From: an uncultured Dehalococcoidia bacterium | GTDB lineage: Bacteria; Chloroflexota; Dehalococcoidia; Lucifugimonadales; UBA3495 | Direction of reading: 5' to 3' | DNA length: 64,000 nt | Assembly (NCBI GenBank): GCA_958296385.1 | Contig: OY282494.1 | Coordinates: forward strand, 2,810,981 to 2,874,980 | Shown: piece by piece, positions 46,848-62,003 of the stretch | Layout: the number at the start of each line of letters is the position of its first letter | Position numbering within the stretch: position 1 is the stretch's first letter | Made by a program: the position numbers and the translations under genes | The notes under the pieces: generated by a model | Databases searched by the model: none | What the model was told of the DNA's origin: nothing | What the model saw: the letters and a program-made list of their open reading frames with translations, nothing else

Positions 46848-48173
46848 CTAATCCCGCCGGTTTTCGTCTCGTCTGGCCAGGCCCAGGGCCTCGTAGTCAA
46901 ACCCCAGCGCGTCCATAGTCTGCGGGTCATAAATACGCCGCCCATCCACAATCAGCGGCGACGCCATTGCGGCCCGCAGGCGGGTCAGGTTGGCGCTGCG
47001 GTAGTCGTCCCACTCGGTAATTACCAGCAAGGCTTGGCTGCCGGTGGCGGCCTGGTACATATCGGGGCAGTAGCGCAGGTTGGGGTGCGGGCCGAAAGTT
47101 TGCTGGAAACTGGCGATGGCCACCGGGTCGTGGCCGGTTACGCGGGCGCCGGCATCCAGCAGCAGCCGCACTACTTCCAGGCTGGGCGCGCTGCGCACGT
47201 CGTCGGTGCCGGGCTTGAACGACAGGCCCCAGACGGTTACCGGCCGGCCGTGCATCGGGTCGAGGCGGCGCCGGGCTTTGGCTACTATCCGGGCCGGCCG
47301 GCGCTGGTTTATCCGCTGCACCTCGGCCAGCAGCGCGGCGTCAACGCCGGCGCCGGTGGACAGGTGGTAGAACGCCTGCATATCTTTGGGCAGGCAGCTG
47401 CCGCCGTAACCGGCGCCGGGATTGAAAAACGACCGCCCGATGCGCGAATCGCTGCCCACGCCCTCCAGCAGCTGCCCCAGGTTGGCGCCGGTGGCCTCGC
47501 TCACGTCGGACAGCAGGTTGGCGTAGGATATTTTCAGCGCCAGAAACGCGTTGGACGCGTACTTGATTAGCTCGGCGGTGCCCGGGTCAGTCCACACTTT
47601 CGGGCAGTCAAACGAACCGTAAAGGTCATCAATCAATCGCTGGCTGCGTGCTCCGGCGGCGCCGATGATGATGCGGTCGGGATTGAAAAAATCGCGGACG
47701 GCGTTGCCCTCGCGCAGAAACTCCGGGATGCAGGCCAGGTCAAACTCGGCGTCCGGCCCGGCCCGGTTGCGGATGATGCGGGCAATCTGCCGGTGCGTGC
47801 CGATGGGGACGGTGCTTTTCTCGACCAGCAGCCGGTAGCCGGGCAGCTCGTCGGCGATTTCCGCGGCGGCGCTTTCCATCTGCGACAAATCGGCCACGCC
47901 GTCCGCGCCCTCCGGGGTGCCCACGCAGATGAGAACCACCGTAGCAACCTGCATCGCCTCCCGCAGATTGCCGGTGAAACGCAGCCGCCCCTGGCCAACG
48001 CCCTGGGCCACCAACTCCTGCAAGCCGGGCTCGTAGAACGGAACTTTGCCGCCGGCCAGCTGCTCCAACCGGCGGGGGTCGTTCTCGACGCAGACCACTT
48101 CGTGGCCCAGCGCACAAAAGCCGGCCGCAGTGACCAGCCCCACCGGGCCGCTGCCAATTATCCCCAAAATCAT
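46848..48173 (-). CDS. UDP-glucose/GDP-mannose 6-dehydrogenase family protein
   Basis: This encodes a 441-residue enzyme that oxidises a nucleotide sugar twice, to the uronic acid, with NAD. The Rossmann motif is GIIGSGPVGLVTAAGFCALG. Conserved parts are CVGTPEGADGVADLSQMESA, VEKSTVPIGTHRQI, IPEFLREGNAVRDFFNPDRI, and the catalytic cysteine in NPGAGYGGSCLPKDMQAF. The C-domain has VWGLSFKPGTDDVRSAPSLE. It lies directly downstream of the glycosyltransferase fusion and probably supplies UDP-glucuronate or a related donor for surface polysaccharide. Confidence 0.93.
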   Translation of the reverse strand: MILGIIGSGPVGLVTAAGFCALGHEVVCVENDPRRLEQLAGGKVPFYEPGLQELVAQGVGQGRLRFTGNLREAMQVATVVLICVGTPEGADGVADLSQMESAAAEIADELPGYRLLVEKSTVPIGTHRQIARIIRNRAGPDAEFDLACIPEFLREGNAVRDFFNPDRIIIGAAGARSQRLIDDLYGSFDCPKVWTDPGTAELIKYASNAFLALKISYANLLSDVSEATGANLGQLLEGVGSDSRIGRSFFNPGAGYGGSCLPKDMQAFYHLSTGAGVDAALLAEVQRINQRRPARIVAKARRRLDPMHGRPVTVWGLSFKPGTDDVRSAPSLEVVRLLLDAGARVTGHDPVAIASFQQTFGPHPNLRYCPDMYQAATGSQALLVITEWDDYRSANLTRLRAAMASPLIVDGRRIYDPQTMDALGFDYEALGLARRDENRRD

Positions 48174-48185
48174 CGGGGTATCACG

Positions 48186-50453
48186 TCAACCCTTTCCGGC
48201 CCGGCGCGCCGGAATAAAGAAGCCGATTCCCCAACTGAGGTGCATCGCCGCCAGCACGATGGGCATGATGATGGCCGACGGCTCCCGGCGGCGCAGCCCG
48301 CTGGCCGCCGAACCCAGCGCCAGCACGGCCAGGTACAGCAGCGGCAGCGCCAATGCCCACCAGAGCATCCCCATTACGGCGACGCCCACCGATGCCGCCA
48401 GCCCCAGCGCCAGCAGCGGGGCGGCCAGGTGCCGCAGCCGCAGCGAACCCGGATGCGTCAGCAGCATCGCCGACTTCCACCGGCCAAAGTTGAAATACTG
48501 CTGCGCCAGCGACGCCATGTTGCTGCGGGGGCGATACTCCGCCGCCAGCTCCGGGTCAAACCACACCGTTTCGCCTTGCGCGCGCAGCCGCCAGTTGAAC
48601 TCGTAATCCTGATTCCGTTTCAGCCGGGTATCAAACCCGCCGCTGGCCGCCAGGGTTTCCCGACGCCACGCGCCCAGGTACACCGTGTCGGTTGGCCCCG
48701 GAGCGTTGCTCACCCGGTAGAGCGCGCAGCCCGAACCCAGCCGCGAGTTCATCGCCAGCGCCACCGACCTGCTGAAAAACGTCGTCCCAACCGACCGCTG
48801 CCGTCCGCCCACGTTGGCGGCGCCGGTGCGGTCCAGCATCGCCACGGCCCGCCCGACGTACCCCGGCGGCAGCGTAGCGTGGGCATCGCAGCGCACGATG
48901 ACATCGCCGGACGCCTCCCTGATGGTGCGGTTGAGCCCGGTAGGCACGATGCCCTCCGGGTTAGGCACGATGCGAACATCGGGATACGACGCCTGAATTA
49001 CTCCCGCCATCGCCGGAGAATCCGAGCCGTCAGCCACGATGACCTCGCTTATCCCCGGATAATCCTGCGCCAGCACCGAGTCCAGCGTAGCCGCTATCGT
49101 CGCCTCCTCGTTGCGCGCCGGTATGATTACCGAAACGTTGCCGGGGCCGGCCGGCGCGCCGGGCAAGGGCGCCGGTTCGGATGCGTTATCCTTTACGTTC
49201 GCCCCGCTGCCGCGCGCGCCGGCATCCGTCCAAACCCGGCGATACTCGGCGATGTAGCGTTCGGCAACGGTGCGGTCGTCGTACTCGGCGGCAACCTTGC
49301 GGCGCCCGGCGGCCCCGTACCGGCGGCGCAGCTCGGCATCCGCCAGCAAACCCTCAATCGCCGCCGCCAACTTACCAGCGTCACGCGGCGGCACCACAAC
49401 CCCGTTCCCGCCGTCCTCCACAATCTCCGCAACCCCCGGCACCGTAGTCGCCACCACCGGCTTACCCATCGCCGCCGCCTCAATCAGCACGCGCGGCACG
49501 CCCTCCGGGTAGTAAGTCGGGTGCGCCACCACGTCGGATATGGCAAAGATGGACTGAACGTCGCTGCGATAGCCAAGATGCTTGACCGAACCCCCGTCAA
49601 CCCACGACGCTAAATCCGCTCCGGATACCGAATCCCGATTGCCCGGATCCGGCTCGCCGGCAATGATAAAACACGCGTCCGGCTGCCGGCTGCGTACCAG
49701 GCGCGCCGCCGCTGCGTACTCCGCAACGCCCTTGTCGTACAGCAAGCGCGACGCCATGCTGACCACCGGCGCCCCCGGCGCTATCCCCAGCTCTGCCCGC
49801 ACCTGCTCCCGGCCCGCCGCGGAAACCAGCTCCGGATTGAACGCCGCCAGGTCGATGCCAGACCCGCCCTTGATAACCCGCGCCTTGCGCCGCAGCGAAC
49901 TCGCCCCCAGCAGAGTGTCGCAGTCGTGTTCGGTCTGGAAAGTCAGGCAGTCGCTCAGCGACGCGGCCAGGCGATACAGCAGCATTGCGTATGACCGCAG
50001 GAACTGGCGGCTGCGCCCCGCCCGTGAGAAAGCATACCCCAGGCCGGTAACCCCGCCGAAAACCGCCGGCACGCCGGCCAGCCGGGCCGCAACCGCGCCG
50101 TACACATTCGGCTTGATGGTAAAATGATGCACCAAATCCGGCCGGAGCCGCCGGTAGATTCGCGCCAGCGCGATTACCTGCCCGGCGGCGGTCAACAGGT
50201 TCAGCCCCCGACGGTTCACGTGCCACGGAATGAACACCGCGCCCATCTGCTCGATGTCGGCCACAAACCGTCCGGGCGGCGCCACCGCGTACACGGTGAC
50301 GCCCAAATCCAGCAGCCGGCGCATAATCGGCGCACGAAACCGCAACAGGTTGGCATCACTATTGGCGACTATGGCCACCGACCGGGGAAAGTCGTCCATT
50401 TCGGGCTCTAATCTTGCAGGCTGCTGAAACATTGCCAAAATCTTGGCTTTCAC
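48186..50453 (-). CDS. Bifunctional glycosyltransferase: GT4 fused to GT2
   Basis: This encodes 755 residues from a GTG start; MDDFPRSVAIVANS at 50399 is a possible alternative. Residues about 20-415 form a GT4 (GT-B) enzyme: RPDLVHHFTIKPNVYGAVAA, APVVSMASRLLYDKGVAEYA, and YYPEGVPRVLIEAAAMGKPV with the E-x7-E region. After a Pro/Gly linker, residues about 440-690 form a GT2 (GT-A) enzyme: VSVIIPARNEEATIAATLDS, EASGDVIVRCDAHATLPPGY and NQDYEFNWRLRAQGETVW. Two or three TM helices end the protein. The fusion would add two sugars in sequence during exopolysaccharide assembly. Confidence 0.88.
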   Translation of the reverse strand: MKAKILAMFQQPARLEPEMDDFPRSVAIVANSDANLLRFRAPIMRRLLDLGVTVYAVAPPGRFVADIEQMGAVFIPWHVNRRGLNLLTAAGQVIALARIYRRLRPDLVHHFTIKPNVYGAVAARLAGVPAVFGGVTGLGYAFSRAGRSRQFLRSYAMLLYRLAASLSDCLTFQTEHDCDTLLGASSLRRKARVIKGGSGIDLAAFNPELVSAAGREQVRAELGIAPGAPVVSMASRLLYDKGVAEYAAAARLVRSRQPDACFIIAGEPDPGNRDSVSGADLASWVDGGSVKHLGYRSDVQSIFAISDVVAHPTYYPEGVPRVLIEAAAMGKPVVATTVPGVAEIVEDGGNGVVVPPRDAGKLAAAIEGLLADAELRRRYGAAGRRKVAAEYDDRTVAERYIAEYRRVWTDAGARGSGANVKDNASEPAPLPGAPAGPGNVSVIIPARNEEATIAATLDSVLAQDYPGISEVIVADGSDSPAMAGVIQASYPDVRIVPNPEGIVPTGLNRTIREASGDVIVRCDAHATLPPGYVGRAVAMLDRTGAANVGGRQRSVGTTFFSRSVALAMNSRLGSGCALYRVSNAPGPTDTVYLGAWRRETLAASGGFDTRLKRNQDYEFNWRLRAQGETVWFDPELAAEYRPRSNMASLAQQYFNFGRWKSAMLLTHPGSLRLRHLAAPLLALGLAASVGVAVMGMLWWALALPLLYLAVLALGSAASGLRRREPSAIIMPIVLAAMHLSWGIGFFIPARRAGKG

Positions 50454-50498: not shown

Positions 50499-51638
50499 TT
50501 ACGGCAATATCCCACCGCCGCCGGCCGCCCCCTTAAGCAGTTTGCGGAACAGGGTTTCCCACTGGTCGAGCACGCTCTCGGTCGAGAATTCGGCGCAAAC
50601 CCGACGATACCCGGCATCGCCCAGGCCGTTCCGCTCCCGTTCGGAAAGCCGCATCATTCGCTCCATCCCCGCCGCCAGCGCCTGATGGTCGCCCGGCGGC
50701 ACGACGATACCCGTTTCGCCATCGGAAACCAGCTCCGGAACGGCGCCCACGGCAGTGGCCACCACCGGCCGCCGCGACGCCATCGCCTCCAACACTACCA
50801 CCGGCATACCCTCCCACGCCGAGGACAGCGCCAGCGCATCGCAGGCCGCAAACAGCTCCGGCATATCCCGCCGCAACCCCAGCAGCGCAACCCGCCCCGA
50901 CAACCCCAGCCGCCCAATCAATGCCCGCACCTCATCCTCCAACGGCCCCGCCCCGGCGATAACAAGCTGCGCCTCCGCCCGCCGCCGCGCTACCTCAGCA
51001 AAGGCGCGCAGCAGATTCGGATAATCTTTCTGAACATCAAGCCGTCCCGCCGCCAGCCATAGAAACCGCCCCTCCGCGATGCCCAGGCTCCGGCGCATAC
51101 GCTCACGGCTCTCAATCGGCTCAAACCGGGCAATGTCAATGGCGTTGGGTATGACGTGCGTATGGGACGGCTTGATGACTCCCCGGCGGCAGAGCTCGTT
51201 TCCGATGCTATGCGACTGCACGGTCACCGCATCCGCCAGCCAATCCGTAAGGCCCAGCAGCCGGCCTCTTATCGCCCCATCCCGTTCGTTACGAACCGAC
51301 GACACCGACGATGCCGACGACAGCAGCGACAGCAGCCGCGCCGTCATCATACCGTGAAACATAAACCCAACCAGCAAGTCCGGTCGGGCCTGCCGGACAA
51401 CCGCCGCCGCCCGGAACAGGCTTGCATATTTTCGGATGCCATTGGGCGAGTTAAGAGTCACAGCGAGCATCCCCGGCCCGCGCAGTTCCGAGCGTAGGGA
51501 TGCCTCCGAGAAAGGCAGATACGAAACCACCGTCACCCGCCAGCCTCGCCCGGCCAAGCCGTTGGCCAGTCCAACCAGCTGGTTCTCAGCGCCGCCCCGT
51601 TCCAGGCCGCTGATGATGAACATTACGTGGTCGGACAT
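50499..51638 (-). CDS. GT4-family glycosyltransferase
   Basis: This encodes 379 residues from MSDHVMFIISGLERGGAENQ, a typical GT4 N-terminus with the GGAE motif. Other features are IRGRLLGLTDWLADAVTVQS, FLWLAAGRLDVQKDYPNLLR, and SSAWEGMPVVVLEAMASRRP, which holds the E-G-x-P-x-x-x-x-E nucleotide-sugar site. The chosen start lies 20 bases after the stop of the O-antigen-ligase-like gene, whereas upstream in-frame starts would overlap it. It is part of the polysaccharide operon. Confidence 0.88.
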   Translation of the reverse strand: MSDHVMFIISGLERGGAENQLVGLANGLAGRGWRVTVVSYLPFSEASLRSELRGPGMLAVTLNSPNGIRKYASLFRAAAVVRQARPDLLVGFMFHGMMTARLLSLLSSASSVSSVRNERDGAIRGRLLGLTDWLADAVTVQSHSIGNELCRRGVIKPSHTHVIPNAIDIARFEPIESRERMRRSLGIAEGRFLWLAAGRLDVQKDYPNLLRAFAEVARRRAEAQLVIAGAGPLEDEVRALIGRLGLSGRVALLGLRRDMPELFAACDALALSSAWEGMPVVVLEAMASRRPVVATAVGAVPELVSDGETGIVVPPGDHQALAAGMERMMRLSERERNGLGDAGYRRVCAEFSTESVLDQWETLFRKLLKGAAGGGGILP

Positions 51639-51657
51639 CCGCTCAACGCCCCGCCGG

Positions 51658-54459
51658 CTACCCATCGACCGGCGCGCCGGCCGGTTCACCCGGCGTTTGA
51701 CGCGCGGCTACGATGCGCTGGAGGCTGAACACCAGCCCGATGACAAAGAAGTGACTCCAGTCAACCCGGAATGGGCCGGTCGAAGCAAAAAGGGTGGCGA
51801 TGGTATAAGCGGCCAACGCCCCGACCACGGCCAGGCCGAGGAAATAGAGGTTCCAATCCCGCGTGCGCAGGATGTAACGACCGGAGTAAATCAACGACCA
51901 CAGTACCAGCGCGTAGAACAGCAGCAGCAGAATCAGGCCGGGAAATCCGTAAGCCGTCAGGATGTACAGAAAATGATTGTGCGGGTCGTAGGCATATAGC
52001 AGGTCCAACAGGATGGGGTCCACTCCTTCACTCACGTGCGCCGCGGTGGGAGCATATACGCCGGTCCCCAGCGGGTAGTCAAGAGAGTAGCGCAATGCCG
52101 TGTTCGCCAGGTGGATTCGGCTTTGAGCCGACTCGCCGGAAATATTGAAAATGCGGCTGTTCCAGGCCAGCCGGGATTCGGAAAAGTGGAGCGCAATGCG
52201 CGCCGCTATTATTCTCCGCTGCCGGTTGCGGCTCGTCAGGGTGTCAAAGTCCTGCCATTGGCGCCATACGTCTTTGGCGTGGTCCCACACCCGGAACTGG
52301 TAGCCGGTGATGCCGGACGGGTTGTCCGGTTCGCGCCAGGCCAGCATCAGGCTGCCGTTCCGGGTGGTCATTCCGGCAATCTCAATCTCGGGGCCATAGC
52401 CGTATTCGTTTTGCGCCCGCAGCTGCGTCGGATGCTCCATATTGGGAATCAAGTCAGGCACATCGTCAATCGTGCGCTGGCGGATGCCCGGGCTGTTGCC
52501 GGCGTTGGCCCCGGAGGACTCCGGCGGCGCGGCGGCCAGCGCCGGGCCTCGGCTGCTCAAATCCGGCTCGAACCCCAACCATCGCAGCCACTTGGTGCCG
52601 TCTTTCTTTCGTATCCGGAACTGGTTGCCGGTAATACTGGCCGGGTCGTCCGGTTCGCGCCAGGTCAAGGTCAGGCTGCCGTCGCTCTCCGACCTGGCCG
52701 CAATCGCGCGTAGCCCGGCCAACCTATTTTGGTAATCCCGCGTAACCAGAGAGTTTAGGGTACGCAGTTGCACCACGTACTCTTCCGACCGGGGCAGCCC
52801 CCCAAAGGTATGGCCGATGACGGCGTGGCCGCCATCGCCGGCGAGCGCGCCGGTGCCATCGGAAAGTTCGTCAAAGATTCCGGTGACCGCTATCACCGTA
52901 GGGGTGAAGTCGCGCCACTCGCTCCATTCGGCTTGCCCGATCCGGCGGAAGCGCAGTTGGTAGCCGTCGACATCGGCCCAGGCGACGGCGAGGTAGTCGT
53001 ATGGATCATCGCCCGGGTCGTTGAGCAGGTTGTAGGCCGGGTCGTCGGGCGGTACCCAGGTCAGGGTCAGGCTGCCGTCGTCATCGGCCCGCCCGCCCGC
53101 CGGGCTGGGCGAGCTGTACCCGTACTCGCTGCGGGTCCGCAACCGCGTCTGATACCGGCCTCCCGGCTCCAGCCCGGTAATGGCGTGGTTGAGAGTATAG
53201 CCGGTGACGTCGCCAACAAAGAGGTCGTAGATAATCGGCGACCGGTTGCTCAGGTAAAAACATTGCCCCGTGGTACAGAAGTCCTGCCACGGCCCCCACT
53301 GCGCCACATCGTCCGGTTTCAACCGGAAATGATAAGCTGAGCCAATGGTGTGGCCATCGGGTTCAGGCCAAACCAGCGTGGTGCTGCCGTCGACCTCCAG
53401 AGTCACCACGGAGGCCCGTATTGCCGCCGCCGCGCCGTCCGCCGCACGAACCTGCGCGGTAAATCGTTGCGACGGCGGCACCTCCTCGAGCGTATGGCCG
53501 ACGGCCGGCTCATCAATACCGGCAAAGACGTTAAACCCGGGGCCTCTGAATAAATCGCGGATACTGTCGGGAATGTCGGCGACATTGTACGTGGGATTGA
53601 AAATCGCAATCAGCCAGAACGCCATCAGCGGAACAATGATAACCAGACGCAGCCACGAACGCGGCAATCTCAGCGACAGCAAAGCAACGCTGACGCTGCC
53701 CACCAGCACGCCCAGAACGGCGGCGCGCCCGGAGCTGTCCACCAGCAGCGTTACCATAGTCATCAACATGACAAACAGGGCCAAGCTGTAGGCCGTTCTG
53801 GAGGCTATTCCCCGCCGGAACGGGTTGCACAGCAGCGCGGCCAGGGCCATGGGGATACCGGCCGCCAGTTGATAATTAAAGGTGCTTATGCCCACGGCAA
53901 GCCCGGCTATCCGGCCGTAAGTAAGAATAACCTCCAGGTTTTTATCCCTGACCTCGGCAATAGACAGCCAGATCGTTATGAATGGCTCGCCAATCAGGAC
54001 TATGGCGGCGCCGAACAGCGCCGACACAAAGGTTGCAAAGATTATCGCCAGCGCCATCAGCTGCGCCCGCGTCACGCCGGTCACCGCCAGATACACCGCA
54101 AACAGCACGCCGATGCCCAAGACCATCTGCCCCAGCCGCGTCGCATCCAGCGTGCCGGTGAACAGATAAACCGCCAGCGCCCACACCACCAGCAGCGCCG
54201 ACACCGCGATTACCGGAATCACGGGCCGAAAGTCCGCAACCAGAGTCGGGATTATCGCGGAGCGTTCCTCAATCCGCACCACCCTCCACAGCACGCAACC
54301 CGCCGCCAGCAAAACCGCTGCGCCGGCCAGCCATACGTTTGGCCCGCCCAGCGGCAGCGGGGTGCTGGCAAACCAAATCTGCCCGAAAATGGCCGCCAGC
54401 AGCAGGACGAATATCAGCCCCGTCAGCGGGGTATGCCGGAGATACGATAGCAGGCGCAA
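51658..54459 (-). CDS. O-antigen-ligase-like (Wzy_C) protein with four inserted FN3-like units
   Basis: This encodes 933 residues from a TTG start (MRLLSYLRHTPLTGLIFVLL). About nine N-terminal hydrophobic helices (residues 10-300) precede a large hydrophilic region. The C-terminal part has the ligase/polymerase signature LDYPLGTGVYAPTAAHVSEG, YDPHNHFLYILTAYGFPGLI and more helices. Inside the outer loop (about residues 330-730) are four related units with a DGSLTLTW strand, a Pro-rich turn, G(Y/N)QFR and W-x-x-WxDF, resembling fibronectin type III domains. Such insertion is not usual for this family. The product probably joins or polymerises lipid-linked glycans outside the membrane. A shorter paralogue with one unit is at 54947-56767. 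Confidence 0.8.
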   Translation of the reverse strand: MRLLSYLRHTPLTGLIFVLLLAAIFGQIWFASTPLPLGGPNVWLAGAAVLLAAGCVLWRVVRIEERSAIIPTLVADFRPVIPVIAVSALLVVWALAVYLFTGTLDATRLGQMVLGIGVLFAVYLAVTGVTRAQLMALAIIFATFVSALFGAAIVLIGEPFITIWLSIAEVRDKNLEVILTYGRIAGLAVGISTFNYQLAAGIPMALAALLCNPFRRGIASRTAYSLALFVMLMTMVTLLVDSSGRAAVLGVLVGSVSVALLSLRLPRSWLRLVIIVPLMAFWLIAIFNPTYNVADIPDSIRDLFRGPGFNVFAGIDEPAVGHTLEEVPPSQRFTAQVRAADGAAAAIRASVVTLEVDGSTTLVWPEPDGHTIGSAYHFRLKPDDVAQWGPWQDFCTTGQCFYLSNRSPIIYDLFVGDVTGYTLNHAITGLEPGGRYQTRLRTRSEYGYSSPSPAGGRADDDGSLTLTWVPPDDPAYNLLNDPGDDPYDYLAVAWADVDGYQLRFRRIGQAEWSEWRDFTPTVIAVTGIFDELSDGTGALAGDGGHAVIGHTFGGLPRSEEYVVQLRTLNSLVTRDYQNRLAGLRAIAARSESDGSLTLTWREPDDPASITGNQFRIRKKDGTKWLRWLGFEPDLSSRGPALAAAPPESSGANAGNSPGIRQRTIDDVPDLIPNMEHPTQLRAQNEYGYGPEIEIAGMTTRNGSLMLAWREPDNPSGITGYQFRVWDHAKDVWRQWQDFDTLTSRNRQRRIIAARIALHFSESRLAWNSRIFNISGESAQSRIHLANTALRYSLDYPLGTGVYAPTAAHVSEGVDPILLDLLYAYDPHNHFLYILTAYGFPGLILLLLFYALVLWSLIYSGRYILRTRDWNLYFLGLAVVGALAAYTIATLFASTGPFRVDWSHFFVIGLVFSLQRIVAARQTPGEPAGAPVDG

Positions 54460-54503
54460 AGTTTCACAGCGATATGATGGTCAAGCCCGACCGTAACGGG
54501 CGC

Positions 54504-54863
54504 TCAGATGGGGCGGGCACGATACTCGGCCGGCCGCAGCCGCTGCCCTGCTGGGTCGACGGTCAGTCTGAAAATCTCCAGCGTGGTTGCGCCCAGCAGG
54601 TATTCGTCGTCGGGGCCAAAAATGACCGGGCAAGGCCATTCGCGGCCGTCAATGCCAAACCGGGCCATACCATACCCATATTCCACTACCCGCCCGTCGG
54701 CAAGCGCATAGCCCGCCTGCTCCAGTGGCGCCATACTGAGCTGCCGCAGCAGGGATTCAGGCATCATAGAATGTGCGGCCCCGGTATCCACCGTCGCCGA
54801 TACCGGCACCAAATCCCCGCCGCCCGGATGTCCCACGCCAATCGTAACCGCAAATATTCCCAT
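54504..54863 (-). CDS. Retropepsin-like clan AA aspartic protease, copy 1
   Basis: This encodes 119 residues from MGIFAVTIGVGHPGGGDLVP, chosen to match its paralogue. The active-site motif is SATVDTGAAHSMMPESLLRQ (DTGA). A second strand reads VIFGPDDEYLLGATTLEIFR, with the GATTLE typical of the family. It is the size of one retropepsin lobe, so it should act as a homodimer. It has no signal peptide and is cytosolic. It ends 44 bases before the ligase-like gene. The target is unknown. Confidence 0.8.
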   Translation of the reverse strand: MGIFAVTIGVGHPGGGDLVPVSATVDTGAAHSMMPESLLRQLSMAPLEQAGYALADGRVVEYGYGMARFGIDGREWPCPVIFGPDDEYLLGATTLEIFRLTVDPAGQRLRPAEYRARPI

Positions 54864-54946
54864 GTCGCCCCCGTCTAATGCCACCATTATTCTAGCATAC
54901 CAACTAAACGCATCCCCCGCCGGCCATTCCAAGCCATGAAAAGCCC

Positions 54947-56767
54947 CTAGTCCTGCGCCGCCGCCGGTTCACCGGACGCGTTACGCTCAACCGCAATTCT
55001 CTCGATGCTGAACGCCAGCCCAATTATAAAGAAGTGGCTCCAGCCCAATATAAACGGCCCAACGGGAACAAACATGGTGACGGTAGTATAGGCCGCCAGC
55101 GCTCCGGCTGCGGCGGCGGTGAGGAATACCGGCATCCCGTCCGGCGCGCCTTTGCTAAACTTTGCGGAGCGAATTAGCGACCGCACCACCAGCGCGTAGA
55201 ACAGGATGAGCAGAATCAGGCCGGGAAACCCGAATAGCACCAGCACGTGCAGAAACTGGTTGTGCGGCCATTCCCCCAACACCTCAGCCTTTGTTTCGGG
55301 ATACAGTCCGGCGCTGACGTGCGCATCGGTTGGCGCATATACGCCGGTTCCCAGGGGGTAATCCAAAGAGTAGCGCAACGCCGTAACTATCAGTAGTAGC
55401 CGGATTTGGGCCGACGGGTTGGCAATCAGAAAGATGCGGTCGCTTACTCCCACGATGCCGTCGGGCCAGTAACCGACCGCGCGGATGATGTCGGTCCGGT
55501 CGCCGGTGTTTGATTCGGGAACGAAGTCCTGCCACATCCGCCACTGGGTTTCCGGGACGCCGCGCAATCGGAACTGGTAACCGATGACTCCGGCCGGTTC
55601 GTCGGGCGGGCGCCAGGTCAGGGTCAGGCTGCCGTCGTCCGCGCCCCAGCTGGCCGTCGCGCTGGGCGTGCCGTACCCCTCCGCACTGCGGGCGCGCACC
55701 TGCGCCTCGTACCATACTCCCGGCGTCAGCCAGCCAATAGTGTAGCGTAAAGTGTTGCCGTCGTCAGCCGCGCCGACCGCCAGGCCGTGGATGGGCAGGC
55801 CATCGCCATCGCCGCTGTGCGCGTCAACTTGCTGCGCCGCCGGCCGCCCCGCAGCAACACCGCCGTCAGCGCCGGCAAGGTCGTTGACGGTGTACACCGG
55901 GTTGAAAAACGCCAGCACCCACAGCGCCAGCAGCGGAACGGCTATCGCCAGCCGGCACCGCGCCGACGGCATCCCGATGGACGGCAAGGCAACCACGACG
56001 CTGCCCACCAGCACGCCCAGAATGGCCGAGCGGGAGGCATTCATCACCAGCGCCGTTACCATGGTTATCAGGATGACGAACAAAATTGCGCGATACGCCC
56101 GTCGGGACATCCGGCCTGTCCCCAAGGCCGGCAGGTACAGCAGGGCGGCCCAGGCCAGCGGAATCCCCACCGCAACTTGATAAGAGAACGTGGCGGTATG
56201 CGACGTAAGCCCGGCAATCCGCCCCGAAGTCAAGATTAGGTTCAGGTTATGTTGGGCCGGCGTGGCCAGATACAGCCAGATTGTCCGAAAGGGATCGCCG
56301 ATGACTACTACCGCAAGCCCGAACAGCGCCGACACAAAAGTTGCGCCGATTATCGCCAGCGTCATCGTCCGGGCCCGCGGCGCGCCGGTCACCGCCAGAT
56401 ACATCGCAAACAGCACGCCGATACCCAGCGCCATCTGCCCCAGCCGCGTCGCATCCAGCGTGCCGGTGGACAGATAAACCGCCAGCGCCCACATCACCAG
56501 CAGCGCCGACACCGCAATTACCGGAATTACCGGCCGAAAGTCCGCAACCAGAGTCGGAATTACAGCAGAGCGTTCCTCAATCCGTACTACCCTCCACAAC
56601 GCACAACCCGCCGCCAGCAGAACCGCTGCCCCGGCCAGCCATATATTCGGCCCGCCCAGCGGCAGCGGCGTGCTGGCAAACCAGATGCTGGCAAAAACCG
56701 CCGCCAGCAGCAGCACGAACAGCAGCCCCGTTAGCGGGGTTTGCCGGAGATAAGATAGCAGGCGCAA
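54947..56767 (-). CDS. O-antigen-ligase-like (Wzy_C) protein with one FN3-like unit
   Basis: This encodes a 606-residue paralogue of the 51658-54459 gene. The N-terminal helices are nearly identical (MRLLSYLRQTPLTGLLFVLL), as is the C-terminal ligase region (LRYSLDYPLGTGVYAPTDAH; EWPHNQFLHVLVLFGFPGLI). The outer loop has one FN3-like unit (ADDGSLTLTWRPPDEPAGVI, then GYQFRLRGVPETQWRMWQDF). The difference in number (one against four) suggests gain or loss of units after duplication. It pairs with aspartic protease copy 2 directly upstream. Confidence 0.8.
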   Translation of the reverse strand: MRLLSYLRQTPLTGLLFVLLLAAVFASIWFASTPLPLGGPNIWLAGAAVLLAAGCALWRVVRIEERSAVIPTLVADFRPVIPVIAVSALLVMWALAVYLSTGTLDATRLGQMALGIGVLFAMYLAVTGAPRARTMTLAIIGATFVSALFGLAVVVIGDPFRTIWLYLATPAQHNLNLILTSGRIAGLTSHTATFSYQVAVGIPLAWAALLYLPALGTGRMSRRAYRAILFVILITMVTALVMNASRSAILGVLVGSVVVALPSIGMPSARCRLAIAVPLLALWVLAFFNPVYTVNDLAGADGGVAAGRPAAQQVDAHSGDGDGLPIHGLAVGAADDGNTLRYTIGWLTPGVWYEAQVRARSAEGYGTPSATASWGADDGSLTLTWRPPDEPAGVIGYQFRLRGVPETQWRMWQDFVPESNTGDRTDIIRAVGYWPDGIVGVSDRIFLIANPSAQIRLLLIVTALRYSLDYPLGTGVYAPTDAHVSAGLYPETKAEVLGEWPHNQFLHVLVLFGFPGLILLILFYALVVRSLIRSAKFSKGAPDGMPVFLTAAAAGALAAYTTVTMFVPVGPFILGWSHFFIIGLAFSIERIAVERNASGEPAAAQD

Positions 56768-56811
56768 AGTTTCACAGCCAGCTGATGGTCAAACCCGACC
56801 GCGGCAGGTGG

Positions 56812-57171
56812 TCAGATGGGGCGGGCATGATACTCCACCGGCAAAAGCCGCTGGCCTGACGGGTCAACGGTCAGTCTGAAAATCTCCAGCGTGGTTGCCC
56901 CCAGCAGGTATTCGTCGTCGGGGCCAAAAATGACCGGGCAAGGCCATTCGCGGCCGTCAATGCCAAACCGGGCCATACCATACCCATATTCCACCACCTG
57001 CCCGTCGGCAAGCGCATAGCCAGCCTGCTCCCGTGGCGTCATACTGAGCTGCCGCAACAGGGATTCGGGCATCATAGAATGTGCGGCCCCGGTATCCACC
57101 GTCGCCGATACCGGAACCAAATCCCCGCCGCCCGGGTGCCCCACGCCAATCATAACCGCAAACGTTCCCAT
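56812..57171 (-). CDS. Retropepsin-like clan AA aspartic protease, copy 2
   Basis: This encodes 119 residues, almost identical to copy 1 (start MGTFAVMIGVGHPGGGDLVP; same SATVDTGAAHSMMPESLLRQ and GATTLEIFRLTVDP). AGGGGAC precedes the ATG. It heads the duplicated protease-ligase module and lies 44 bases upstream of its ligase-like gene. High identity suggests recent duplication or gene conversion. Confidence 0.8.
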   Translation of the reverse strand: MGTFAVMIGVGHPGGGDLVPVSATVDTGAAHSMMPESLLRQLSMTPREQAGYALADGQVVEYGYGMARFGIDGREWPCPVIFGPDDEYLLGATTLEIFRLTVDPSGQRLLPVEYHARPI

Positions 57172-57380
57172 GTCCCCTATGCCTGGTGCCGTCGCTATTC
57201 TAGCACACCAACTAAACGCATCCCCGCGATAAACACGGGCGCGCGCTACAGCCTCACCTCCGAAAACCGAGTCTAGATTAACTATAAATAATCACCGCAC
57301 AAACTGAGAATACCCGGCAAATGCCGTTCCGATAGACGCCGCCCCGTCATCGTCAAAATCGGGTGCTAAGCGGGCGCCGG

Positions 57381-58808: not shown

Positions 58809-59138
58809 CTATTTCAACAACAACCACATCGTGCGTAACACATCTGAGAAACTGCGCTTGGATACGAAACAAGGCGGCTCCAATGCGGCCTCATCATCCA
58901 AAACCTGGGCAATCTCCGGGGTAAGCACAACGCCAAGCTCCGCCAGTTCCTTCTTGATGCGTGCGCGCTCCGCAAGAACGCCCTCCCGGTAACCCACTTC
59001 CCACCGAGCCCGTCTCAAGCCTTCCTGCCGGCCTAGTTCCATGGCCTTTCGTTCGACAGATTCTTTTGCGGCAAAAAACACTTTGACCCCTTCCTTTGCC
59101 GCAGTGAGGCGGCACGGCAGTGCGGAAAGTAGCGACAA
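58809..59138 (-). CDS. Small helical protein related to the next gene
   Basis: This encodes 109 residues from a TTG start, which is uncertain. The central and C-terminal helix (FAAKESVERKAMELGRQEGL; RIKKELAELGVVLTPEIAQV) matches the end of the 122-residue protein upstream, but the N-terminal membrane helices are missing. The end (PPCFVSKRSFSDVLRTMWLL) is unrelated. It may be a partial duplicate or a soluble relative. It ends nine bases from the amidase start. Confidence 0.5.
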   Translation of the reverse strand: MSLLSALPCRLTAAKEGVKVFFAAKESVERKAMELGRQEGLRRARWEVGYREGVLAERARIKKELAELGVVLTPEIAQVLDDEAALEPPCFVSKRSFSDVLRTMWLLLK

Positions 59139-59161
59139 CGACCGGGGGGAACCGGGCGCGC

Positions 59162-59530
59162 CTATTTGGTTTTCTCGCGCAGGGCTTGGGCGATTTCCGG
59201 AGTAAGCGTAACGCCAAGCTCCACCAGTTCCTCTTTGATGCGCTTGCGCTCCAAATCGCGGCCTCGCGCCTCGGCCTTTTTCTCAACGGCTTCTTTTGCG
59301 GCAAAGTACATTCTTAAACCTCCGTAAAGCGCCAGCGCCGTGGGGAACAGCAGCAGCGTCGCCACTATTATAACCCCATCGTCCCGGCTAGTCAGCATCC
59401 CCAGGTAACCCAGCAGCGGCAAGCCGCCGCAGGCGCACCCGGAGAGCAGTATGGCCAGCAGCATACTGGCGCTAATTGATACCGACCCGTCAAAAAACCG
59501 CCACACCGGGCGATTGCTGCTGTCATCCAT
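59162..59530 (-). CDS. Small membrane protein with charged C-terminal helix
   Basis: This encodes 122 residues from MDDSSNRPVWRFFDGSVSIS behind CAGGAC. Two transmembrane helices follow (SMLLAILLSGCACGGLPLLG; VIIVATLLLFPTALALYGGL), then a charged amphipathic helix ending in ELVELGVTLTPEIAQALREK. The layout resembles the coiled-coil membrane proteins at 35-36.6 kb (two helices then a charged helix), but the sequence is not clearly related. Function is unknown. Confidence 0.6.
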   Translation of the reverse strand: MDDSSNRPVWRFFDGSVSISASMLLAILLSGCACGGLPLLGYLGMLTSRDDGVIIVATLLLFPTALALYGGLRMYFAAKEAVEKKAEARGRDLERKRIKEELVELGVTLTPEIAQALREKTK

Positions 59531-59843
59531 TGCGTTGTCCTGCGTATTGCCCTGGCATAAAGTTGCGAATCCTCGCCTTGCCGCCGTTATTTCCGGCACG
59601 GTTAATGAATAACAGCAGATAAGACCGAATTTTGCAACCATCGTTTGTCACTAGAAAATTGCGAACCCGGTCTTGCTGCCTTTCCGTCGGCTGCCTGTTA
59701 TCGGGAAAGAAAGGGCACGGTATGAACATCCCATAGCCTTACCATACTGCTCCAAAATCAGTGCCTCATAAACCAACCCACCCAAAACGAAACGCTATCT
59801 ATCCGGCCTACCATCCCCCCAACGGGCCGCCCTTGCCCCGTGC

Positions 59844-60036: not shown

Positions 60037-61815
60037 TTACCCCCGGCTCGCCCCCGTCAGGTACTGGTGCATTTCGCAGGCGAACCATAGCGCCAGGCTG
60101 CCGGTGCGGTCGTCGTGGCCGCTCAGGGCGCTGCGGTTCAGGTACGCCCGCGTGTCCGGCATTACGCCCGTGCTGATGCAGCCGTCAACTACGCCCCCGG
60201 AGTCGTCAATCCGTTCGCCCAGCGCGCGCCAGCAGGATGCCAGGCCGTCGGCGTAGCCGGCGCCCGTGCTGTCGTCGGATGGCAGCCACCCCTCGCGCAG
60301 TCCCCGGGCCAGCGCGTAGCCCACCATGCACGTTGACGTCAGCTCGCCCCACGCTCCCGGCACGTCAATCAGCTCCCCGAAAGTTCCCCAGGGCTGCTGG
60401 CGGCGCAGCAGGGCGGCCAGATGGCTGCGGTGCCGCTGTTCCAATTCCGGGCGTGATGGGTGATTTGCCGGCAGATAGGTCAGCGCCTCGGCGTAGCCCA
60501 GCGCGGCGAAACCATTGCCCCGGCTCCAGTAAAAGGGCGCCGTGCGGTCGTGATGGAAAAGCCCGTTGTCCTGCTGCACGTCGCCGCCGTCAAGCAGGAA
60601 AGTCGCCAGCAAATCGGCATACCCGCCGTCGCCGGTGATGCGAAATGCCCGCCCCAGCATCGCCCCGCACATAAACATATCCTCCACCCGAAACTGCGGG
60701 TCGCAGGGCGCCGGCGCCATGCCGGGGCCACGAGCGACAAAGCGGTCGGCGGCATCCAGAAACAGCCGGCGGTACGACGCATCGCCGGTGACGTCGGCCA
60801 GCCGGGCCGCCCAGACCACGCCGGCCAGCGCCGCCCCGCCGGCGTTGGCCAGATGCGTCTCCGGGTCGGCGACGATTGGCGCCACCAGACTGGCAATATC
60901 GGCGGCCGGGTTCGGCGCCGTATCGTCCAGCGCAAACCGGCGCAGCCGCCCGCTGATGCCCACGCCCTGCGTGTAGTTGACCGGATTGAGGGCGTGTCCA
61001 TAACGACCTGCCAGGATGCGCGCCAGTTCCAGCGGCGTGCGCTCCCGCCGGGCGTGCAGCGCGATGCTGCCCGCCGCTGCCGGCACGTCGGCGCCTTTGC
61101 CCGTGAGCGCCCACAGCGCGCCCAATGCGCTGCTGAGCCCCGTCCAGTGCGTAGTCAAACGCAGTCCGGGGATAGTTCCCGGCGCATCGTCGGCCGGACG
61201 GCCCACCGCCGCCAGCAGCGAGTCGTCGTCCGCCCCCGGAATCGCATCCAGCGCGGCGGCCGCCGGCGAACTGATGGCGGCGGCGTTGGCCTCCCACCGG
61301 GCCGGGCCGTCGTCGTCATCCGACAGCGCCACCTCCACCAGCAAGTCGGGCGCCTGATAGGTAATCCAGCGCCACAGATAGCGGCGTTCCGGGGCGGTTT
61401 CGTCAAAGTAAAACCCATCTTGCGGCGGGTAGCCGGCCGACAGATTCACCCGCTGCGGCGCCAGCGGTTCCCAATCGCCGCCGGCCAGCGCGTCCGGGTT
61501 GGCCGCAACCACCGCCGACAGCGCAACCCCGTTGGCCATCGCCGCCGCAGATTGGGCGAACCGATCCAAAGCCGCCAGCAGCCGGGGCGTGTCCGCCGGA
61601 TTCCCCCGCAGCCCGCCCACCAGCAAAACCGCCGGCCGGTGATTCGCCCCGGACGCCGGCCCGGATGATGCCATAGACCGGGTATCCAGCAGGGCCAGAA
61701 TCGGGCGGAGCGCCGGGGTCAATCCGATGGCCGCCGTCTGCCAGTAGGCGGGGCTGCGCTTGCGCACCAGGTTCACCAGCGCGGCGTTAATATCGGTAGG
61801 GTGCATCGTCGTCAT
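60037..61815 (-). CDS. Fusion protein: unknown N-domain plus GH88/GH105-like six-hairpin domain
   Basis: This encodes 592 residues from MTTMHPTDINAALVNLVRKR. Residues about 1-260 include RPAVLLVGGLRGNPADTPRL, SAVVAANPDALAGG and APDLLVEVALSDDDDGPARW. They resemble a peptidase- or deacylase-like alpha/beta domain (M14-like appearance), but no complete active site is clear. Residues about 290-590 have the alpha/alpha toroid of unsaturated glucuronyl/rhamnogalacturonyl hydrolases: FMCGAMLGRAFRITGDGGYA, GLFHHDRTAPFYWSRGNGFA and TSTCMVGYALARGLREGWLP. No signal peptide is evident. It may degrade uronate oligosaccharides in the cytoplasm. Confidence 0.7.
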   Translation of the reverse strand: MTTMHPTDINAALVNLVRKRSPAYWQTAAIGLTPALRPILALLDTRSMASSGPASGANHRPAVLLVGGLRGNPADTPRLLAALDRFAQSAAAMANGVALSAVVAANPDALAGGDWEPLAPQRVNLSAGYPPQDGFYFDETAPERRYLWRWITYQAPDLLVEVALSDDDDGPARWEANAAAISSPAAAALDAIPGADDDSLLAAVGRPADDAPGTIPGLRLTTHWTGLSSALGALWALTGKGADVPAAAGSIALHARRERTPLELARILAGRYGHALNPVNYTQGVGISGRLRRFALDDTAPNPAADIASLVAPIVADPETHLANAGGAALAGVVWAARLADVTGDASYRRLFLDAADRFVARGPGMAPAPCDPQFRVEDMFMCGAMLGRAFRITGDGGYADLLATFLLDGGDVQQDNGLFHHDRTAPFYWSRGNGFAALGYAEALTYLPANHPSRPELEQRHRSHLAALLRRQQPWGTFGELIDVPGAWGELTSTCMVGYALARGLREGWLPSDDSTGAGYADGLASCWRALGERIDDSGGVVDGCISTGVMPDTRAYLNRSALSGHDDRTGSLALWFACEMHQYLTGASRG

Positions 61816-62003
61816 AGCAACTCTCTCGGCAATTAGGATGTAGATGTAACGGATGGTAGCGGCGGCCATTATATCCGCCGGACGCCGGCGGCGCGCATTT
61901 AATTTCCGCCCCCCCCATTAAAAGGATGACCGGGAGGGCAGGACAACCCGGCAAAAGGTGTGCTATTCTGTGCCCCGACACCAACCTTACGGGCGGATTG
62001 CCG

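Follow-up and report, generated by a model that had tools for sequence, protein, structure and literature searches.

Putative half-swapped FN3-like modules in the outer loop of tandemly duplicated WaaL-type glycan ligases/polymerases of an uncultured Dehalococcoidia bacterium

What are fibronectin type III (FN3)-like units doing in the catalytic loop of a membrane glycan ligase, and does a small aspartic protease encoded next to it have any part in its function? The question is raised by a locus with two such protease and ligase pairs, located in the 64,000-nucleotide stretch analysed here (the window, to which all coordinates refer unless stated otherwise) from an uncultured Dehalococcoidia bacterium. 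The genome (G000) is represented by a single contig of 3.30 Mb, and the relatives identified by sequence are uncultured Dehalococcoidia as well. Wzy/WaaL-type enzymes are the makers of much bacterial surface glycan and, to our knowledge, the determinants of their acceptor choice and chain length are poorly understood.

Layout and duplication of the locus

Four consecutive open reading frames on the minus strand encode protease 1, LigA, protease 2 and LigB (window ORF list), and 44 bp separate the protease stop from the ligase start in both units. The ORF list and Pfam thus bear out the two protease and Wzy_C-type pairs, with their coordinates and gap, as described in the first-pass annotation. 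The features, including the neighbouring glycan genes, are the following.

~57225-54947, minus: unit 1 of the tandem, clan AA protease plus Wzy_C protein with one FN3-like module
57197..57205, minus: candidate extended -10-like element TGCTAGAAT, 5' of protease 1 (sequence and blastn of the copies)
56812..57171, minus: protease 1, clan AA retropepsin-like, 119 aa, DTGA (Pfam gag-asp_proteas, 33.2 bits)
54947..56767, minus: LigA, predicted WaaL/Wzy_C-type membrane glycan ligase/polymerase, 606 aa (Wzy_C 40.6 bits; AlphaFold model similar to 7tpg)
55403..55906, minus: LigA outer-loop insert, residues 288-455 (alignment, insert table, helices, loop charges)
55517..55759, minus: LigA putative half-swapped FN3-like module (profile A4 match 2-83, 114 bits; swapped halves)
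~54917-51658, minus: unit 2 of the tandem, clan AA protease plus Wzy_C protein with four FN3-like modules
54889..54897, minus: second copy of TGCTAGAAT, 5' of protease 2 (blastn of the two copies)
54504..54863, minus: protease 2, clan AA, 119 aa from the conserved ATG (Pfam, 31.4 bits)
51658..54459, minus: LigB, predicted WaaL/Wzy_C-type, 933 aa (Wzy_C 34.5 bits, fn3 41.6 bits; model similar to 7tpg)
52120..53601, minus: LigB outer-loop insert, residues 287-780 (insert table)
53269..53511, minus: LigB module 1 (profile A4, 96.4 bits)
52897..53202, minus: LigB module 2, with ~20 extra residues between B and C (profile A4, 97.6 bits)
52561..52827, minus: LigB module 3 (profile A4, 104.6 bits)
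52240..52479, minus: LigB module 4, the best modelled (profile A4, 112.9 bits)
50499..51689, minus: GT4 glycosyltransferase, overlapping the end of ligB (listed from TTG; Pfam Glycos_transf_1, 128.5 bits)
48186..50453, minus: GT4-GT2 fusion glycosyltransferase (Pfam)
46848..48173, minus: UDP-glucose/GDP-mannose dehydrogenase, uronic acid sugar supply (Pfam)

The element TGCTAGAAT sits 25 bp 5' of each protease ATG, within the duplicated block, and is considered only a candidate promoter, since a sigma-70 scan flagged neither site. Elsewhere in the window (58809-59641), two small adjacent ORFs have diverged repeats of 66 and 63 nt in common.

Inspection of the duplication boundaries by blastn of the two copies places the start of the repeat at ~57225 in unit 1 and at ~54917 in unit 2, with TGCTAGAAT present in both. 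DNA identity is 82% over the protease and the N-terminal part of the ligase, the two proteases share 92% protein identity, and LigA and LigB are sisters in the tree (support 99/97). The ligase cores, however, are just 67% identical, so that the initial description of the units as near-copies is right about the tandem duplication and the proteases but overstates the likeness of the ligases. Along the unit dS climbs from 0.17 between the proteases to 0.31, 0.36 and 0.73 between the ligases (residues 1-100, 100-170 and 170-287, respectively) and 0.77 at their C-terminus, which suggests later gene conversion on the 5' side; the simplest reading would be a single tandem duplication of the protease and ligase unit, followed by such conversion.

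Concerning the proteases, both show gag-asp_proteas and Asp_protease_2 above the Pfam cut-offs together with the DTGA motif, which assigns them to the clan AA aspartic proteases (PF13975). They resemble in this the retropepsin-like families of the clan (PF13975/PF13650; TIGR03698), but fall below the TIGR03698 cut-off (clan_AA_DTGF, 39.2 bits for protease 1 and 42 for protease 2, against 57.35) and adjoin a ligase, while elsewhere they adjoin unrelated genes, as do the other copies in the same genome. Duplication as one unit and retention of DTGA in two highly similar proteases would be compatible with a functional pair in which the protease cleaves or controls the ligase. However, five related ligase loci of the same order have no clan AA protease nearer than ~40 kb (the nearest in genome G025), and 43 of the 60 relatives carry the protease family, most of them lacking this ligase. 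A single genome can contain as many as 25 protease copies, often in tandem; true ligase homologues occur in 6 of the same 60, the present genome counted. The best protease homologue in G006 (82%) lies ~0.97 Mb away from the ligase, and in G025 a homologue pair (60-61%), whose second copy is followed by an SNO/PdxT-like glutamine amidotransferase gene, lies ~71 kb away. Adjacency of protease and ligase is therefore peculiar to this genome among the genomes examined, one of the two outcomes that the first-pass annotation had itself named as speaking against its proposal, and the constant pairing that it assumed does not hold. The 92% identity is weak evidence of joint function, because it accompanies the low dS of the apparently converted 5' side (0.17 versus 0.77). 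Furthermore, inspection of the 119-residue protease by eye reveals no evident signal peptide or transmembrane segment, and access of the enzyme to the outer loop is accordingly improbable. A functional pair appears very unlikely; the best explanation is that the protease is a duplicated bystander out of a widely multiplied family.

Small retropepsin-like proteases of clan AA have multiplied strongly in the order (32 in G025 by Pfam), often as tandem pairs or triplets ~400-500 bp apart (G025, G010, G003 and G028; loci L075 and L074). In the present genome, two copies (L072 2979-3792 and L071 2926-3619) each have a similar small gene 5' of them (86-120 aa, ...GRGPYLIR...), possibly a recurrent pair. 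Another copy directly follows an enoyl-CoA hydratase-like gene both here (L069 2519-3614) and in G006 (L077 2572-3748); the two hydratase-like genes are nearly identical, which makes this a conserved neighbourhood.

The membrane core and its glycan context

Both ligases score above the Wzy_C cut-off of 31.7 bits (LigA 40.6, LigB 34.5; Pfam). AlphaFold models computed from 8-sequence alignments are of moderate confidence (mean pLDDT 61.6 for LigA and 56.2 for LigB), and the best structure match of both is the cryo-EM structure of WaaL, 7tpg, with Z 21.8 over 380 residues for LigA and 22.6 over 371 residues for LigB, followed by RodA with Z ~14 in either case. Comparison of the two predicted structures hence supports a WaaL-fold ligase/polymerase core, in line with the O-antigen-ligase-like (WaaL/Wzy-type) identity given at first pass.

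Taking long helices as transmembrane, the short loops predicted inside are richer in Lys/Arg than the outside ones, which favours an N-in topology with the insert outside. The insert would occupy the TM9-TM10 outer loop, between TM9 and the catalytic-loop helix and beside conserved Arg/His. The loop residues R456, R465 and H502 (numbered as in LigA) show no variation among the 8 sequences; from what is known of the family, they would be the equivalents of the WaaL catalytic residues. With the known WaaL/Wzy_C family (PF04932, GT-C; 7tpg) the ligases thus share the core fold with 12 transmembrane helices (by model and loop charges), the conserved loop Arg/His, a Wzy_C match above cut-off and the glycan gene neighbourhood, and they differ from it in having the TM9-TM10 loop occupied by FN3-like modules or other inserts and in belonging to a genome without LpxC.

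Downstream of ligB lie the GT4, GT4-GT2 and UDP-glucose/GDP-mannose dehydrogenase genes, the ligase loci of the relatives are likewise found among glycosyltransferases, and two flippase-family genes occur elsewhere in the genome. A glycosyl hydrolase family 88 gene is also located near the glycan cluster (60037-61869, 83 bits).

Which acceptor would receive the glycan? No LpxC was found in the genome, which is 99.95% complete (an E. coli control was positive). The organism therefore probably does without lipid A, which makes lipopolysaccharide an unlikely acceptor; identification as an LPS O-antigen ligase, WaaL sensu stricto, was dropped on this account. The same result would favour enzymes that, instead of polymerising the glycan, attach it to proteins in the manner of PglL/PilO, or else to a carrier belonging to an S-layer or the wall, and WaaL-fold proteins do include protein O-oligosaccharyltransferases (PMC3643930). 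On the other hand, none of the Pfam models that are specific for protein O-oligosaccharyltransferases matches the ligases, and sequence does not reveal the acceptor. We regard such attachment as decidedly improbable.

Register of the FN3-like modules

Pfam fn3 is matched above its cut-off of 25 bits by both LigB (41.6) and LigA (27.6). To establish the register, the canonical FN3 units of the clade were placed onto the ligases, in which a set of 11 modules was delimited, restricted to five proteins. All five FN3-bearing ligases show the order E-F-G then B-C-C', strand A being absent, although units of the multi-module proteins might still pair with one another. Spacing from F to B is 31-33 residues in 10 of the 11 modules and 39 in one, B to C measures 11-12, with extra residues in one module, and C to C' is 12 in all; C to the next F, by contrast with these, spans 44-103 residues, corresponding to variable linkers after C'. 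The canonical arrays of this clade instead have ~40 residues from C to F and, in most cases, 41-50 from F to B. The constant stretch thus appears to be shifted, the missing residues corresponding to strand A.

Profile comparison points to the same arrangement. The profile of the 11 modules (A4) scores 96-123 bits with its own members and, among 79 genomes, next best with a surface-protein array at 44 bits. Solved single FN3 domains are matched in the C-terminal half by the start of A4 and in the N-terminal half by its end: positions 4-40 match residues 65-101 of 111 in 1x5l, and positions 45-83 match residues 19-59 of 99 in 8bw6, while positions 34-64 match residues 8-37 of 88 in 1k85. Conserved W, Y and R positions run through all 11 modules. 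Concerning the models, LigB module 4 forms one six-strand unit (strands within 659-738; pLDDT 66-85 for the block 661-740), and modules 1-3 are poorly modelled and not reliable. Against FN3 and Ig-like domains the modelled module gives Z ~4-6, a range that may reflect just a common arrangement.

Altogether, the comparison supports the reading of the 11 modules as phase-shifted FN3 with swapped halves. The collinear match of a swapped unit to FN3-like sandwiches may be explained by the pseudo-twofold likeness of the two halves. Relative to fibronectin type III (PF00041), profile matches are shared and the modelled module may be similar in fold (Z ~4-6), whereas here the halves would be swapped, strand A missing and the linkers located after C' instead of G. 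The FN3 arrays of the same clade that are the nearest non-ligase matches to A4 (L138 and L045) are related, but are long surface proteins in canonical register with an A strand. An FN3-like insert in the catalytic loop, as initially proposed, therefore stands as regards the fn3 matches and the loop position, with a strand order that is not canonical, E-F-G preceding B-C-C'. What goes beyond that proposal is the swapped register and the fact that relatives have different inserts in this position.

The outer loop as an exchange site and the possible role of the modules

LigA and LigB differ mainly in the number of FN3-like units, one and four, within outer-loop inserts of 168 and 494 residues, just as first noted. 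Among the relatives inserts measure 51 (G006), 166 (G057), 184 (Caldilineaceae), 190 (G045), 369 (G049) and 399 residues (G025), and module counts run from 0 to 4. In G006 this core is found without any module, hence modules are dispensable for the core reaction, and G045 and the Caldilineaceae relative bear unrelated inserts in the same loop. A diverged Wzy_C paralogue in the present genome (2,423,877-2,425,931; L046 5878-7932) carries, at the corresponding place in the Wzy_C profile, a 268-residue insert made of an Ig-like pair, two ~100-residue repeats that are 58% identical. In 118 genomes of the class no comparable split was seen among the Wzy_C matches listed outside G000, a search in which very divergent cases could be missed. 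In the module tree, modules 1 and 2 of G025 group together as sisters (99/98), which points to a duplication within the gene, and most other branches are poorly supported. These comparisons support the outer loop as an exchange site, with a variable number of modules and with unrelated inserts in relatives.

The Caldilineaceae insert contains a near-perfect internal repeat of ~25 residues (L053 7956-9845). A PPC domain considered for it was rejected, at 13 bits versus a cut-off of 25.9.

The ligase family is rare and patchy. Of 250 genomes from the order, six yielded it, the present one counted; 399 further genomes, drawn evenly from across the phylum, yielded none, and one more member was found in a Caldilineaceae contig. 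A contig search with LigA alone returned nothing and with the alignment six loci, all in OY282xxx records. A nearby accession, OY282360, is listed as a sponge metagenome (PMC12239599), and sponge symbionts are reported to be rich in FN3 genes and to exchange them laterally (PMC8163846); on these indirect grounds an association of the ligase family with sponges is plausible. Literature searches found no paper combining Wzy_C and fn3 and none on O-antigen ligase and fibronectin in sponge Chloroflexi, and a narrow search of open full texts found none on a natural FN3 permutation of such kind.

The reported enrichment in sponge symbionts, together with a loop that takes unrelated inserts (G045, Caldilineaceae, the paralogue) or none (G006), would also fit modules without any role in the reaction, either adhesive, host-facing display domains borne by an envelope protein, as with other FN3 proteins of such symbionts, or neutral passengers in an insert-tolerant loop. 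But the modules all lie beside the conserved Arg/His, in one register and with W/Y/R kept across 11 copies, which argues against pure neutrality, and adhesins are not usually located in a loop of a membrane enzyme. Modules of this kind remain, to us, a possible but rather doubtful account.

Our preferred explanation for the whole, which we hold with about even confidence, is that of WaaL-fold glycan transferases with a swapped-FN3 arm that guides the acceptor, the protease being a bystander. LigA and LigB, derived from the tandem duplication of the protease and ligase unit, would be 12-TM, WaaL-fold extracytoplasmic glycan polymerases or ligases. Their substrate would be a glycan that is linked to undecaprenyl diphosphate, probably contains uronate and is made by the products of the GT4, GT4-GT2 and dehydrogenase genes downstream; outside the membrane, they would join this glycan to a further chain or acceptor. 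The modules of the TM9-TM10 loop most likely make up an arm at the entrance to the active site, which could dock or guide the acceptor or the growing polymer, and their number and kind would change to tune reach or specificity.

More broadly, and as an unlikely though conceivable extension, the half-swapped FN3 could be a distinct, independently multiplying module of the WaaL-type catalytic loop, whose number sets acceptor reach or polymer length, the loop being a general exchange site for beta-sandwiches in host-associated Chloroflexota. The modules resemble an FN3 domain whose two halves have been permuted in nature and whose strand A has been lost; the pseudo-twofold similarity between B-C-C' and E-F-G agrees with this. 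The natural series of 0-4 modules at a single loop makes the role of this loop directly testable.
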